A stretch of DNA of 64,000 nucleotides from an uncultured Candidatus Actinomarina sp. (GCA_902610815.1 CACLXG010000001.1:264775-328774); one strand, 5' to 3'; shown: positions 30,274 through 36,690, numbered from the stretch's first letter. Translations and numbers: made by a program. Notes: generated from the sequence alone by a model not told the origin.

Positions 30274-31149
30274 CTAAATTTTAAAACGTATAGCTAAATT
30301 TTCTATAAATATATTTGCTGGACCATTTGCAAAATAATCACCATCAATCTCTATCGGATCATTGCTTTTTATTTCTAATTTAGAAGCTTTTCTAAGAATT
30401 ACATCAGATTCTTTAAGGTGTAAACCTTTTTGAGCTAAGAAAAATATTTTCATTGCTTTAAGTTTTGATACTGCGAATATCTGAACGTTGAATTTACCAT
30501 CTTGTAAGCTAGATTTTGGTGAAATATTCCAGCCACCACCAAAATATTGTGCATTGCAAACACATATATTGAATGCATTATTATTAAATTTAAAATTATC
30601 TAGATTTATATTAATTTTTTTAGCTTTTGCAAAAAATATTTTTATCCAAAAACTTATAGGATATCTAAATCTTCGTATAAGTTTAGGCATCTTTTCACTT
30701 ACTTCTACTGAAGAAGCCAAAAATCCAATGTTCAAAACATTTATAAAATACTTTTCTTTATTTTCTGCTACGACTTTTCCAATATCGATTTCATAATAAG
30801 AATCCGTAATTAAATGTTTTATTGTTTCTTCAATATTTTGTGGAAGTGCGAAAGTTCTAATAAAGTCAGAACCGCTTCCAGCTGGCAAGCAAGCAACTTC
30901 AGGTTTCTTAACACCTCTATTCATCAAAGCATTAATCAATGAATTTAAACTTCCATCTCCCCCGATGGCACAATATTGATATTTGTTGCAATCTAAATAT
31001 TCATCTATAACATTATTAAGTTCATCAATTGTTGAAGTTGAAAAGTATTTAAAAGGAATATCATTACTTTTAAATAAATACTCAACATATTCTTGTGAAA
31101 GATTTTTACCTCTTGAATTAAGGTTATGAATTACAATGTATGTTTTCAT
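30274..31149 (-). CDS. Diacylglycerol/lipid kinase
   Basis: NSRGKN, AIGGDGSLNSLINAL, LPAGSGSDFIRTFALP. Confidence 0.9.
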   Translation of the reverse strand: MKTYIVIHNLNSRGKNLSQEYVEYLFKSNDIPFKYFSTSTIDELNNVIDEYLDCNKYQYCAIGGDGSLNSLINALMNRGVKKPEVACLPAGSGSDFIRTFALPQNIEETIKHLITDSYYEIDIGKVVAENKEKYFINVLNIGFLASSVEVSEKMPKLIRRFRYPISFWIKIFFAKAKKININLDNFKFNNNAFNICVCNAQYFGGGWNISPKSSLQDGKFNVQIFAVSKLKAMKIFFLAQKGLHLKESDVILRKASKLEIKSNDPIEIDGDYFANGPANIFIENLAIRFKI

Positions 31150-33011
31150 GACATAGTTTTTTGTATCAAATTATTATCAAAAATTTTATTTATTTCTTCA
31201 AAACTATCATCTTTATAAATAACTGACAACTTTTTAGATATTTCAGATGCTTCTTTTGCAACCTTTATAAAATCGCCAATATTCAAATTAAATTTATTTA
31301 TTACATATTCAATATTCTCAGATTTCATATACTCATAAAATACACTAAACCAAGATAAATTAATTTGTGTAGGTTTTTTAATGGCATTTGAGAATTCAAT
31401 TTTATTTACTTGTTCTGTTGATGAATAAAATTGGTTAAATAAATGATTAAAATCATCCTTTAGTGTAAATTCTAATTTTTCATTACTTATTCCAGATGAA
31501 ACATACATTAATTTCATTTCAACATCCCGACTTTTAACTGTATGGTACAAATGAATTGCTGGAATTAGATTGTCTCTATAAGTTTCGTTTAAAACTTTAC
31601 CTTTTATTGAGTCAATAAAGTCGAGTTCTTTTAAAACATTGTGCTTTGCTTTAAACAATTCTTCTAACTTATCAGTTTTAAACATGTTTTGATAAGCAAA
31701 AAAACTTTTTTGCAATAGCTCGATTGATTCCTCCATGCTGTATATATTTAACAAACTCAATATAGATGAATAACTAATTGAAAATGCAGAATTTAAATTA
31801 CTGGATTTGAGTGTAAATAGATTGCTATACCAATCTTTATTTATACTTCTGTCATATGATAAGAAGGCATAACCTTTATCATCTATACCCCTTCTTCCTG
31901 CTCGTCCACTCAATTGCATAAACTCTGACTGAGTAATAGGTCTAGTTTTGATTCCATCATATTTATGTAACCTATCAATAAATATAGCTTTTGCTGGCAT
32001 ATTAATTCCTAAAGCTAATGTCTCAGTAGCAAAAAGAAATTTTATATATTTATTTAAAAATAGATATTCTACAAATTCTTTAACAATTGGGGCTAGACCA
32101 GCATGGTGATAACCTACACCTCTTGACCACATCCACATATGCTCATCAAGGTTAAGGAGTGTTAACTCTTCAGTTGTTAAATCACCAAATACATCATCAT
32201 ACTTACTTTTAATTTCATTTCTATTTTCAATTAATTTAAAGCTATTCGACAACTGTCTTGCACTTGATTCAACCCTTTCTCTTGAAAAATAAAAAAATAT
32301 GACTGGTAATAAATTTCTAGAATTTAAATATGAGGCTTGTTCTTTTAAACTTGGTTTATTAAATTGTGAATTTTTTTTCTCTATTTTAAATATATTTTTA
32401 TTTTTTTTATCTTTTGTAGATTTAATTATTTTTAAGTCTCTACTCGACTTAGAGCTAGCAACTAAAGATATTTCTAAAGGGATAGGTCTTGTACTTGAGT
32501 GAATTAATGAGGTTGCTCCTCTTAATGAAACTAACCATTCTAAAAATTCATTTTTATTGTTTATGGTTGCTGAAAGAGAAAGAAATTTTATATCTTTGTT
32601 TGCATGAATCAATATTTCTTCCCAGGTAGTTCCTCTTTCTTTATCAGCAAGATAATGTACTTCATCTAAAATTATTAATCCAGTATTGATTAATTTACTG
32701 TCTTTACTAAAAATCATATTTCTTAATATTTCTGTAGTTGCTATTACTAATTCTGCATCTTTATCAATACTTCTATCTCCTGTAAGCAGCCCAGTCCTTA
32801 TGCCTTGCCTATTAAAGTCATTGTATTTTTGATTAGAAAGAGCTTTTATGGGTGTTGTATAAAATATATTTTTTTGTTTTGATAAATAATGATCAATAGA
32901 TCTTTCGGCAATGTATGTTTTTCCTGAACCTGTAGGTGCAACAACTAATACATTGTTACCGTTTTTTACATCATTAACCGCTTCTTCTTGAAATTTGTCA
33001 GGAGTAAACAT
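31146..33011 (-). CDS. Superfamily 2 DEAD/DEAH RNA helicase (HelY/Ski2-like)
   Basis: APTGSGKTYIAE, LDEVHYLAD, SATINN, ATETLALGINMPAKAIF, QLSGRAGRRGID; after tatC. Confidence 0.92.
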   Translation of the reverse strand: MFTPDKFQEEAVNDVKNGNNVLVVAPTGSGKTYIAERSIDHYLSKQKNIFYTTPIKALSNQKYNDFNRQGIRTGLLTGDRSIDKDAELVIATTEILRNMIFSKDSKLINTGLIILDEVHYLADKERGTTWEEILIHANKDIKFLSLSATINNKNEFLEWLVSLRGATSLIHSSTRPIPLEISLVASSKSSRDLKIIKSTKDKKNKNIFKIEKKNSQFNKPSLKEQASYLNSRNLLPVIFFYFSRERVESSARQLSNSFKLIENRNEIKSKYDDVFGDLTTEELTLLNLDEHMWMWSRGVGYHHAGLAPIVKEFVEYLFLNKYIKFLFATETLALGINMPAKAIFIDRLHKYDGIKTRPITQSEFMQLSGRAGRRGIDDKGYAFLSYDRSINKDWYSNLFTLKSSNLNSAFSISYSSILSLLNIYSMEESIELLQKSFFAYQNMFKTDKLEELFKAKHNVLKELDFIDSIKGKVLNETYRDNLIPAIHLYHTVKSRDVEMKLMYVSSGISNEKLEFTLKDDFNHLFNQFYSSTEQVNKIEFSNAIKKPTQINLSWFSVFYEYMKSENIEYVINKFNLNIGDFIKVAKEASEISKKLSVIYKDDSFEEINKIFDNNLIQKTMS

Positions 33012-33017
33012 TATATA

Positions 33018-33740
33018 TTATTTACTCTTACTTAAATACAAAACCAATTCTATGAGCATATATAAGGGTATTGTGAATATAAATAGCGTTATTGGATCTC
33101 CTGTGGGTGTGATAATTGCAGAAAAAATTAATACACCTAAAAATATTTCTTTTCTATTATCTGTAAAAATATTTCGACTTATGATACCTCTTTTAATTAA
33201 AAAATAAATTACTAATGGAGTTTGAAAAGAAATACCAAATAAAATTGATATTCTAGAAATCAATTGGAAATAATTTTGTGTTCTTAAAATAAAATCAGAT
33301 TCATTAAATGATAATAAAAAATCTATACCTATAGGTAGGGTTATATATGCTGAAAATATACCTAGATAAAATAAAATGATAAAAACAATCAAATACAATA
33401 TAAAAAGTTTATGAGATAATTTTTCAAAAGCAGGTTTAAAAAAATATCCAATAATAAATATAACTAGTGGGAGCGATAAGGCTATTGATACAAAAAATGT
33501 ATTTAAAACTTTAACTTGAAATCCTTCATATATTGTAAAAGCAACTAGTTCATCAATTGAATATCCGGCATTCAATAATGGAGAGGTTAGAATTTCATAA
33601 ATTGAGCTGTAGTTTATGTAAACGATAGTGAAAAATATAGAAACTATAAATAGTGAAATTAATATTCTGTAATTTAATTCTTTAAAGTGTTCAAAAAATT
33701 TTTTATTATTCAAAATTATTCCTCTTCTAACCAAACCCAT
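33018..33740 (-). CDS. tatC: Sec-independent translocase TatC (start more likely TTG ~10 codons downstream)
   Basis: FFEHFKELNYRILISL, multi-TM, FGISFQTPLVIYFL, F..II.AIITPTGDPITL. Confidence 0.92.
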   Translation of the reverse strand: MGLVRRGIILNNKKFFEHFKELNYRILISLFIVSIFFTIVYINYSSIYEILTSPLLNAGYSIDELVAFTIYEGFQVKVLNTFFVSIALSLPLVIFIIGYFFKPAFEKLSHKLFILYLIVFIILFYLGIFSAYITLPIGIDFLLSFNESDFILRTQNYFQLISRISILFGISFQTPLVIYFLIKRGIISRNIFTDNRKEIFLGVLIFSAIITPTGDPITLFIFTIPLYMLIELVLYLSKSK

Positions 33741-33886
33741 TTTTGCTTTATTGTTTTATCACCAATAACTTTACGAACTTGATCGGATTCAGAACTATTG
33801 AATACACGAAATAATTTTCTTATTTTTTCTTTATCTAAAATACCCAAGGATAAAAATATTATTATGATAAGTTCTATTAAACTCAT
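33716..33886 (-). CDS. Putative minimal TatA/TatB-like protein (56 aa), absent from ORF track
   Basis: MSLIELIIIIFLSLGILDKEKIRKLFRVFNSSESDQVRKVIGDKTIKQKWVWLEEE; ATGA overlap with the upstream WYL gene; located between pafC-like gene and tatC. Confidence 0.7.
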   Translation of the reverse strand: MSLIELIIIIFLSLGILDKEKIRKLFRVFNSSESDQVRKVIGDKTIKQKWVWLEEE

Positions 33887-34743
33887 ATCTTTAACTTCTT
33901 TTTTAATTTATCGTTTCTTATTTTAAATTCATTTATTAATGATTGTGGGGACATAATTTCTATATATTCATAATTTTTAATAACAAAATTTAATGCGTTT
34001 GATTCGGAATAAAATTTTGCTTCTACATGGTTATTTTTTAATTGATAATCATCTTTGTTTATATCAGTAAGAACCTTTTCATTTGAATATGTGAACTTCA
34101 TAACAGTCTCCATTTTATTAGATTTTTTACTTTCTCTAAAGTCTTCAATAGATAGTGAATCTACGATTCTATTAATTAAAAAAGTTTTTAATTTTTCATC
34201 ATTTAAATCAATAGCTTCTAAAACAATACCATCATTATTAGTTGTCAATAGAACAGGTTGAATTCTATAAAATGTTTCCTTTGTCGATCCAAGTTTTATA
34301 TATGAGATTATGCTTTCTTCAAAAAATGCTAAATTTTCAAAAACACCATCATTATTCTCTTCTAATATTTCTAAATTAAAATATGGACTAACTGCATTAT
34401 AAAATTTTTCAACATCACTATTGTTTTTAACTAACTCTTTATAGATTGAATTTGAAGATAGCAAAAAGATTAAATTAAATAACTCACCATCATTTATTTG
34501 AATTATATTTTTTAATGAAGGATTAATATTGAATAATAATTCTTTATTAGTGTCATCAAATTCATAGTCAATTAATAATTCTCCTTGTTGCGAATAAATG
34601 TCAGTAATTACTGACAAGATATAAAATATTTCTTTCTCATCTATATTTAATTTTTGTGCAAAATTATTTAGATTCCATTTTTGTTGATTTTGTATTAAAG
34701 AAAGAACACTCATTACCAATTGTAGATCAACTTTTTTTGACAT
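33883..34743 (-). CDS. WYL-domain regulator (PafC-like)
   Basis: Helical N-terminus, YRIQPVLL..NDGIVLEAIDL..LKTFLINRI; tandem with second WYL gene before tatC. Confidence 0.8.
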   Translation of the reverse strand: MSKKVDLQLVMSVLSLIQNQQKWNLNNFAQKLNIDEKEIFYILSVITDIYSQQGELLIDYEFDDTNKELLFNINPSLKNIIQINDGELFNLIFLLSSNSIYKELVKNNSDVEKFYNAVSPYFNLEILEENNDGVFENLAFFEESIISYIKLGSTKETFYRIQPVLLTTNNDGIVLEAIDLNDEKLKTFLINRIVDSLSIEDFRESKKSNKMETVMKFTYSNEKVLTDINKDDYQLKNNHVEAKFYSESNALNFVIKNYEYIEIMSPQSLINEFKIRNDKLKKKLKI

Positions 34744-35560
34744 CTAATAACTCCTTAATATTAACTGAAGTGCTTATATTTATAATCTCTATTTCGTCAT
34801 CTAAAAGAAGTAAAAATTTTATAAAACCATAGTTATCATTTGTAGACACTTTGCAATGTAAAATTTTATCTCTGATTTCTAATTGTATTTGATTATGTGC
34901 AAACATATTTTTATTTATGTCGTACAAATCTTTTTTTAATTTAATTGTTGCTTCGATAGAATATTTTTCGTTATCCCATGAAAAAGGAAAATTTATATTT
35001 TCAATTTGAAATAAATCAGCTTTATTACCAATTTTTAAATTATGTATTTGATCTAAATTAAAAGTCTTAAGTGATCCACTGTCTTCTCCAGCTAAATACC
35101 ATTTGTTATCAAAATATTTTAAACCTTGAGGTTTTACCTTTCGATATTTATCAAGGTAGTCAAAACCAACTCTTCTTTTTTCGTTAATAGACTGGAGAAT
35201 TTTTGATATTAATTCGTTTTTATCATTGTCAAAATTGCTTTTTGCTAAATATTTTTTGAGATATAAATAAGTATTTACTAATTTATCACTACTAATTTTT
35301 TTAGATTCAATAATTGAATCATAAATTGAATAACCTGAAAGTGAATAACCTTTATCGTAAGACCATTTATCATTCTCATACTCAATTAAATAACCAAATG
35401 AGCGTAATAAATTTTTATCTCTTTCAAATGAACGTCTAAATGCTTGTTGATTTAAATCTCTATAATCAGAGATGCTGTCCTTAATGTTTTCTGTTGATAG
35501 ATTGTTGTTTTCACTTAATAAATTTAATAACTCTACTGCTCTTCTTAATACATTTTTCAT
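34727..35560 (-). CDS. WYL-domain regulator (PafB-like)
   Basis: HTH-like N-terminus, RKVKPQGLKYFDNKWYLAGEDSGSLKTFNLDQI. Confidence 0.85.
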   Translation of the reverse strand: MKNVLRRAVELLNLLSENNNLSTENIKDSISDYRDLNQQAFRRSFERDKNLLRSFGYLIEYENDKWSYDKGYSLSGYSIYDSIIESKKISSDKLVNTYLYLKKYLAKSNFDNDKNELISKILQSINEKRRVGFDYLDKYRKVKPQGLKYFDNKWYLAGEDSGSLKTFNLDQIHNLKIGNKADLFQIENINFPFSWDNEKYSIEATIKLKKDLYDINKNMFAHNQIQLEIRDKILHCKVSTNDNYGFIKFLLLLDDEIEIINISTSVNIKELLDVKKS

Positions 35561-35671
35561 TAATTAAATCTCTTTTGAAGTGTTGAAAACATAGTCTAAT
35601 TTTACAAATTTTAATAAATAAAATTATTGTTAAAAATTTATATATGTCTGCAGTATTGTAATATATACATT

Positions 35672-35917
35672 ATGAAAGTTTGGATAGATCAAGACTTATG
35701 CACAGGTGACGGACTGTGCGAAGAAATTGCTCCTGACGTTTTTGTTGGTTTAGATGATGGATTATTTTATGTCAAAGAAGGTGATAAAATTTTCTCTGAA
35801 GAAAATGGAAATGTTGGTGGTGCAGAAGGTTTAGCTGTTGTTCCTAAAGGTCAAGAAGAAGCTGTTGTTGAATCAGCTGAAGAATGTCCTGGGGAATGTA
35901 TAATGATAGAGCCTTAA
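35672..35917 (+). CDS. Small ferredoxin
   Basis: MKVWIDQDLCTGDGLCEEIAPDVF...AEECPGECIMIEP. Confidence 0.9.
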   Translation: MKVWIDQDLCTGDGLCEEIAPDVFVGLDDGLFYVKEGDKIFSEENGNVGGAEGLAVVPKGQEEAVVESAEECPGECIMIEP

Positions 35918-36690
35918 TATTCTATATATCTAGCAGTAATTAAAAATCCAGTATGTGAAACTAGTTTGTTTGAAGGCCTTACAATCTTTTCATCAACTAC
36001 CCAATCTCTAAGTATTACCTCTTTTATCTCTATATCCTGAAACTGATTATCCATTAAAATGTTATTCATTCTCATAATTTGAGTCATAGACGGTAAATAC
36101 GAAACCCAGTAAATACTATTTTTTATTTTATTATTTTTGAAAAATTCCCATGGCTCTGGAACATCCGTAATTATTGAATCAATATCTTCATTAAGTAACT
36201 TATAATTAAAATTTACTAATTCTTCATTTAAAAAATTAATATCATTACTTTCTTCAGATAATGTAGATATATATCTGGAAATAGTTTTATCAGCTCTTCT
36301 TTGGTTTTTTTTAGAAGAATCAAGACTGTATAGTTTTCCAGTATTTTTTAAAAGAGTATATAGATATAAAGTTAAAGCTCCTGAGCCAGAACCTATTTCA
36401 AGAATCTTACTCGAATTATGAATATTTGACTCTAAAACTATTTGAGCTACATCTTTTGGATAAATTATCTGAGGACCTCTTTTCATTAAAAGTACAAATT
36501 CTTTATAAGAAGGTTTGTAAATTTTAAAATTAATACCAGTTGAGGTTTTAACCTGGGATGGGATATTTTTAATTTGTGAAAATTTAAATTTTCCTTCATT
36601 GGTAGTAAATTCTTTTTTTAAATCTACTACGGCTAAATATTTATTATTTTTTGGAGTATGTATAACTATTAGTTGATTATCTATATTCAA
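35914..36690 (-). CDS. tRNA (adenine-58-N1)-methyltransferase TrmI-like
   Basis: KRGPQIIYPKDVAQIVLESNIHNSSKILEIGSGSGALTLYLYTLL; DVPEPWEFF. Confidence 0.9.
   Translation of the reverse strand: MNIDNQLIVIHTPKNNKYLAVVDLKKEFTTNEGKFKFSQIKNIPSQVKTSTGINFKIYKPSYKEFVLLMKRGPQIIYPKDVAQIVLESNIHNSSKILEIGSGSGALTLYLYTLLKNTGKLYSLDSSKKNQRRADKTISRYISTLSEESNDINFLNEELVNFNYKLLNEDIDSIITDVPEPWEFFKNNKIKNSIYWVSYLPSMTQIMRMNNILMDNQFQDIEIKEVILRDWVVDEKIVRPSNKLVSHTGFLITARYIEY

Follow-up and report, generated by a model that had tools for sequence, protein, structure and literature searches.

The Pup-proteasome locus was described in a 2021 review as present in all Actinobacteria, with partial loss known only in the form in which the barrel is lost and tagging is kept (PMC8223512). 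In the Corynebacterium type, prcBA was lost and both pupylation and the ATPase were retained (PMC3511204), while Propionibacterium acnes has been reported to carry prcBA with neither ARC nor Bpa (PMC4254994). In mycobacteria, the Bpa (PafE)-20S pathway works beside Mpa and Pup (PMC4254994, PMC10415612), and a GQYL motif docks Bpa as well as Mpa onto the 20S core (PMC10415612). According to published surveys, Bpa is confined to genomes with a 20S core (PMC4254994, PMC8223512). The locus also encodes PafBC, which in M. smegmatis is an ssDNA-activated sigma adaptor (PMC11804915, PMC6789036).

We analysed a stretch of 64,000 nucleotides (the window) from Candidatus Actinomarina, a very small marine bacterium. 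The genome to which it belongs comprises 1,100,974 bases (1.1 Mb) with 32.6% GC and is 93.7% complete, and the window's PafB shares 87% identity with PafB from Candidatus Actinomarina records. As in the Rv2118c-Rv2092c region of M. tuberculosis and in the Acidimicrobiia loci that we fetched, the flanking genes of the window run in the order trmI, ferredoxin, pafB, pafC, tatC and helY, but mpa, dop, pup, prcB, prcA and pafA are all missing. The upstream border is formed by trmI, encoding a tRNA (adenine-58) methyltransferase (35914..36690, minus strand; Pfam GCD14, E 1.1e-20), which is a border gene also in relatives with an intact locus. A small 4Fe-4S ferredoxin gene (35627..35917, plus strand; Fer4_15, E 3.4e-15; likely start at ATG 35672) is separated by an intergenic stretch (35561..35671) from pafB, which encodes a WYL-domain transcription factor subunit (34727..35560, minus strand; WYL, E 3.4e-10). 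Next come pafC for the fast-evolving partner subunit (33883..34743, minus strand; assigned by position and by the fold match of an AlphaFold model), a tatA-like ORF of 56 aa (33716..33886, minus strand) and tatC (33018..33740, minus strand; Pfam TatC, E 6e-42). The tatA-like ORF has no Pfam match and was assigned by its position, a single transmembrane stretch and its conservation in other loci of the genus. The downstream border is the DEAD/DEAH helicase gene helY (31146..33011, minus strand; Pfam DEAD, E 3e-27), which occupies the equivalent place in relatives. It is followed by a gene for a YegS/BmrU-type lipid kinase (30274..31149, minus strand; TIGR00147 above its cut-off) that is also found in several outgroup loci and in G061, an Actinomarina genome to which we return below.

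An earlier note on this DNA had claimed that the genes from trmI to helY, including the tatA-like ORF, are contiguous and that trmI and pafB lie about 350 bp apart with a divergent ferredoxin between them. All of these genes are present at the coordinates given above and the distance measures 353 bp; the genus has 29 further loci besides that of G061, in which it ranges over 313-365 bp. The ferredoxin orthologue has an equivalent position in most outgroup loci, where it is divergent from mpa rather than from pafB. Comparison of the loci indicates that the gap between ferredoxin and pafB is the slot that holds mpa-dop-pup-prcB-prcA-pafA in relatives and prcB-prcA in G061.

Could the missing genes have moved elsewhere? 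Profile searches of the whole window genome gave zero matches for Pup (PF05639), for Pup ligase/Dop (PF03136) and for the 20S subunits PrcA/PrcB (PF00227), and none above the cut-off for Mpa/ARC. The sole match of the Mpa profile is to an AAA domain (E 3.1e-45), which we read as FtsH; AAA-domain matches of this kind reach about 156 bits in Actinomarina, far below the profile's cut-off of 504.75 bits. The absence of mpa, dop, pup, prcBA and pafA that had been claimed for the locus holds genome-wide, which rules out relocation and therefore means that the genes were lost. The GTDB order to which the window genome belongs is represented by 42 sampled genomes, all of this one genus, and 30 Actinomarina genomes are in our even sample of the class. 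Pup ligase was detected in 0 of these 30, and 20S subunits in 1 of the 42 (G061 only). These genomes are incomplete drafts and their proteins are AT-rich in coding and fast-evolving, so it has to be considered that the system was left out of the assemblies or has diverged beyond detection. We judge this extremely improbable, because 30 loci are closed and without a break, with the trmI-pafB distances given above, and because the equally AT-rich G061 gives easy matches to PrcA, PrcB and Bpa with identical profiles.

The state of the locus in relatives was determined in 129 evenly drawn genomes of the class, 30 from Actinomarina and 99 from outside the genus. Pup ligase is present in 98 of the 99 non-Actinomarina genomes, and the counts over the class sample for Pup (97 genomes), Mpa above the cut-off (96) and 20S (98, G061 among them) agree with those for the ligase. 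Each of the 19 loci fetched from other families of the class has a cluster with mpa, dop, prcB, prcA and pafA. In 14 loci this cluster is bordered by trmI and/or ferredoxin and, at its opposite end, by pafB, and most also have tatC and helY placed as in the window; pup maps within the cluster in the class genomes listed for it (e.g. G007, G022 and G034). The order typical of the class is thus trmI-ferredoxin-mpa-dop-prcB-prcA-pafA-pafB-pafC-tatC-helY with pup in the cluster. Because genomes of the class as a rule have the locus intact, its loss in Actinomarina is derived, and because the intact loci of relatives share the flanks of the window, these flanks are remnants of a normal locus. The reverse combination is seen in loci L019-L022, in which the Pup-proteasome genes are accompanied by tatC and helY while phmmer gives no match to PafB or PafC. 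The sole genome of the class outside Actinomarina in which Pup ligase was not detected, G019 (4.4 Mb, rated 100% complete), has Bpa on contig L098 without matches to Pup, Pup ligase, Mpa or 20S; either a contig is missing, or the system was lost independently in a bacterium that is not streamlined.

At the level of the phylum we used 397 genomes with a completeness of at least 90%, and the lists of PF00227 and ligase matches were compared by eye. A PF00227 match is found in 175 genomes and a Pup ligase match in 180. Ligase without the 20S pair occurs in this sample, as is known for Corynebacterium. PF00227 without ligase is seen in G211, G231, G306 and G358, with one weak match each that is probably HslV. 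Outside Actinomarina, no prcB+prcA pair without Pup ligase was found among the 397 genomes.

Within Actinomarina, G061 is the genome that has such a pair. It is a single draft genome of 50 contigs and 87% completeness, with the locus order trmI-fdx-prcB-prcA-pafB-pafC-tatA-tatC-helY followed by the lipid kinase gene. PrcB (L026 8728-9474) and PrcA (L026 9474-10115) are encoded exactly between ferredoxin and pafB. When G061 PrcB is aligned with solved actinobacterial PrcB, its Thr40 falls on the mature Thr1. Asp17, Arg19 and Lys33 are retained, as are 48 of 59 outgroup-invariant positions in PrcB and 55 of 65 in PrcA. Judged from these residues, including the catalytic Thr1, Asp17 and Lys33, the two genes are intact and their products qualify as 20S subunits. 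The best Acidimicrobiia matches reach 187 bits for PrcB and 217 bits for PrcA, compared to 165 and 183 bits for the best solved chains from outside the Acidimicrobiia. A phage origin of prcB was rejected, since there was no match among phage records.

Pup, Pup ligase/Dop and Mpa were not found anywhere in the G061 draft by profile search. The slot between ferredoxin and pafB has no room for pup, dop, pafA or mpa, which are certainly absent there; pupylation genes could sit in the part that this 87%-complete draft is missing, though not at their normal place. There is likewise no sign in G061 of a Cdc48-like Cpa as a second activator, as the sole AAA match of the Mpa profile is read as FtsH.

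On the other hand, G061 encodes Bpa, which was found in none of the other 29 Actinomarina genomes tested. The gene (L097 7790-8218, minus strand) encodes 142 aa ending in PGQYL, with a PF10759 domain (E about 1e-44 to 3e-44) and a match to solved Bpa at E 1e-33. The BPA domain together with the C-terminal GQYL, the docking motif for the 20S core, marks it as a Bpa. The gene is located between a glutaredoxin gene (grx) and an inositol-monophosphatase-like gene (imp), while in the window genome and in 20 other loci of the genus with readable flanks grx and imp are adjacent with no bpa between them. A gene neighbouring bpa in G061 is 67-76% identical to its counterparts in other Actinomarina, which shows that this contig truly belongs to the genus. 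The joint absence of Bpa and 20S from the rest of the genus fits the published co-occurrence of the two. Bpa degrades HspR in mycobacteria. The window genome retains an HspR-like MerR gene after dnaK-grpE-dnaJ (C3:130671-131114), though Bpa is gone.

The combination found in G061 suggests that this free-living lineage probably runs a minimal proteasome of PrcA, PrcB and Bpa without Pup or ATPase, a surviving intermediate in which tag-free and ATP-free degradation outlives pupylation. Compared to mycobacteria, with which G061 shares a GQYL-ending Bpa and a 20S core with the catalytic threonine, the Bpa-20S pathway would be the sole route in G061, whereas both partners are gone in the window species. 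Like P. acnes as reported, G061 has a 20S core without its ATPase, but it additionally has Bpa and lacks the pupylation genes. The Corynebacterium type is likewise a partial erosion of this locus, and G061 is its reverse, having kept the 20S core but neither pupylation nor the ATPase; the window has none of these.

According to the earlier note, the module had been cleanly excised as a whole. It is correct that all module genes are gone from the window genome, but excision in one event does not agree with G061, which retains prcB-prcA in place and bpa as well. We therefore consider it highly probable that the loss was stepwise, with tagging and Mpa going first, prcBA and bpa later, and pafBC being kept. 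In this order of events, pup, dop, pafA and mpa would have been lost before the genus split, leaving an intermediate stage at which 20S was fed by Bpa alone and partly unfolded proteins were broken down without ATP or tag. Later, prcBA and bpa would have been lost jointly, presumably because each is useful only with the other, and this probably happened twice, once in the lineage of the window. We suppose that pafBC was retained because, as a transcription factor, it would work apart from proteolysis.

In a tree of five concatenated locus proteins, G061 groups with the window clade (bootstrap 76), and all other members of the genus form a second clade (99). In a topology test, the position of G061 with the window clade obtained an AU value of 0.97, while a basal position (0.047) was marginally rejected and a position with the other clade (0.004) was rejected. 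Support for the placement within the genus is thus moderate. Because of this, the number of later prcBA and bpa losses, one or two, is the least certain part of the stepwise scheme; taken at face value, the tree implies at least two.

The nested position of G061, even if moderately supported, would also suit a single ancestral excision of the whole module followed by a regain of prcBA and bpa through horizontal transfer, and so would the location of bpa between grx and the IMPase gene, as its neighbours differ from those of bpa in the two outgroup genomes that were checked. Nevertheless, we regard such a regain as quite improbable: prcB-prcA occupy the exact ancestral slot and have kept the ancestral order, they match Acidimicrobiia best (187/217 bits) and the best solved chains from outside that class less well (165/183), and two unlinked genes would have had to return separately. 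Under the stepwise loss that we prefer, the order of events would be opposite to that of the reviewed cases, because tagging and the ATPase disappear before the barrel, which persists together with Bpa. G061 would then show, as a case from nature, that selection can maintain the Bpa-20S pathway by itself, and it would be a reduced system for asking which proteins Bpa degrades.

What has become of PafBC? For PafB, the profile of the genus matches that of outgroup PafB with an hhalign probability of 99.57 (E 1e-23, 260 columns) and PafC much more weakly, and in the PDB the M. smegmatis PafB chain is matched with E 9e-11. PafC gave no match in a plain sequence search against the PDB, and therefore a fold comparison was used. 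The best PDB fold for its AlphaFold model (mean pLDDT 80, pTM 0.38) is M. smegmatis PafC (9fnd chain Y, E 2.4e-9), with a low overall TM since the domain packing of the model is uncertain. The hhalign match of the PafC profile to PafC is weak (E 0.0036, probability 9), yet better than that to PafB, and the position after pafB is common to other loci of the genus. The claim that the two WYL proteins are PafB and PafC orthologues is therefore secure for PafB and, on fold and position, likely for PafC, for which support at the sequence level is weak. Values of dN/dS between two species (0.10 for pafB, 0.12 for pafC) are similar to those of neighbouring genes, and both genes are under purifying selection. 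Eleven Actinomarina genomes, G005 and ten others, have no pafB match; overall this is about what incompleteness would lead one to expect, but G005 is rated 94% complete, and pafBC itself may have been lost in some species.

The recognition helix of PafB, whose arginines are needed in M. smegmatis (PMC6789036), is invariant in all 30 Actinomarina sequences ([AS][FY].RxFERDK, with both essential arginines). Actinomarina PafBC shares with its M. smegmatis counterpart the gene pair, this helix and the WYL triplet of PafB. Unlike there, the arginines of the FRxDR loop in the PafB WYL domain, which bind ssDNA in M. smegmatis (R211/R214; PMC11804915), are replaced: they are present in 13 of 13 outgroup PafB sequences and both lost in 30 of 30 from Actinomarina. 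In PafC, the second arginine of the ssDNA pair is retained in 28 of 28 sequences and the other one is lost, as are W and Y of WYL. PafBC would accordingly be expected to bind promoter DNA via the unchanged helix, with a remodelled ssDNA sensor; that it still does its mycobacterial job is weakly supported. With PafBC retained without a proteasome and without the canonical ssDNA arginines, the window species offers a test case for the long-suspected link between PafBC and the proteasome and for the ssDNA-sensing model.

A streamlining-wide loss of DNA-damage control was ruled out, because LexA and RecA are present and both genes have SOS boxes, a perfect one at recA (TCGAACAAATGTTCGA) and one with a single mismatch at lexA. 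The mycobacterial RecA-NDp motif (TTGTCRGTG-N8-TANNNT) was rejected as a regulon marker, as it has one strict match in the genome with no gene start nearby. A weight matrix derived from recA and run over the genome returned no repair genes beyond recA. As to PafBC motifs upstream of repair genes, a RecA-NDp-like element was found at recA only, and no regulon was detected in the genome. This lack of a RecA-NDp regulon, together with the loss of both ssDNA arginines from PafB and of one, as well as W and Y, from PafC in all sequences examined, could mean that the two WYL genes have ceased to be a PafBC and now form a diverged regulator whose ligand and targets are different. We consider this unlikely, although less so than the alternatives above, because the gene pair, its order and its neighbours are preserved, the recognition helix is invariant, and at recA a conserved TGTC element still follows the SOS box. 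In the recA promoter of the window genome (C1:186541-186621), the SOS box lies between TTGTAT and TAAAAT; a second conserved TGTC element is located downstream, and the arrangement recurs throughout the genus. Across 31 recA upstream regions of the genus (26 extracted by script and five read by eye on the opposite strand), a conserved [TA]TGTC[AT]TA element and a box similar to TTTTAAT come after the SOS box, a layout that resembles RecA-NDp in part only. From this promoter layout, action of a retained PafBC at recA appears plausible, and it may act there with LexA.
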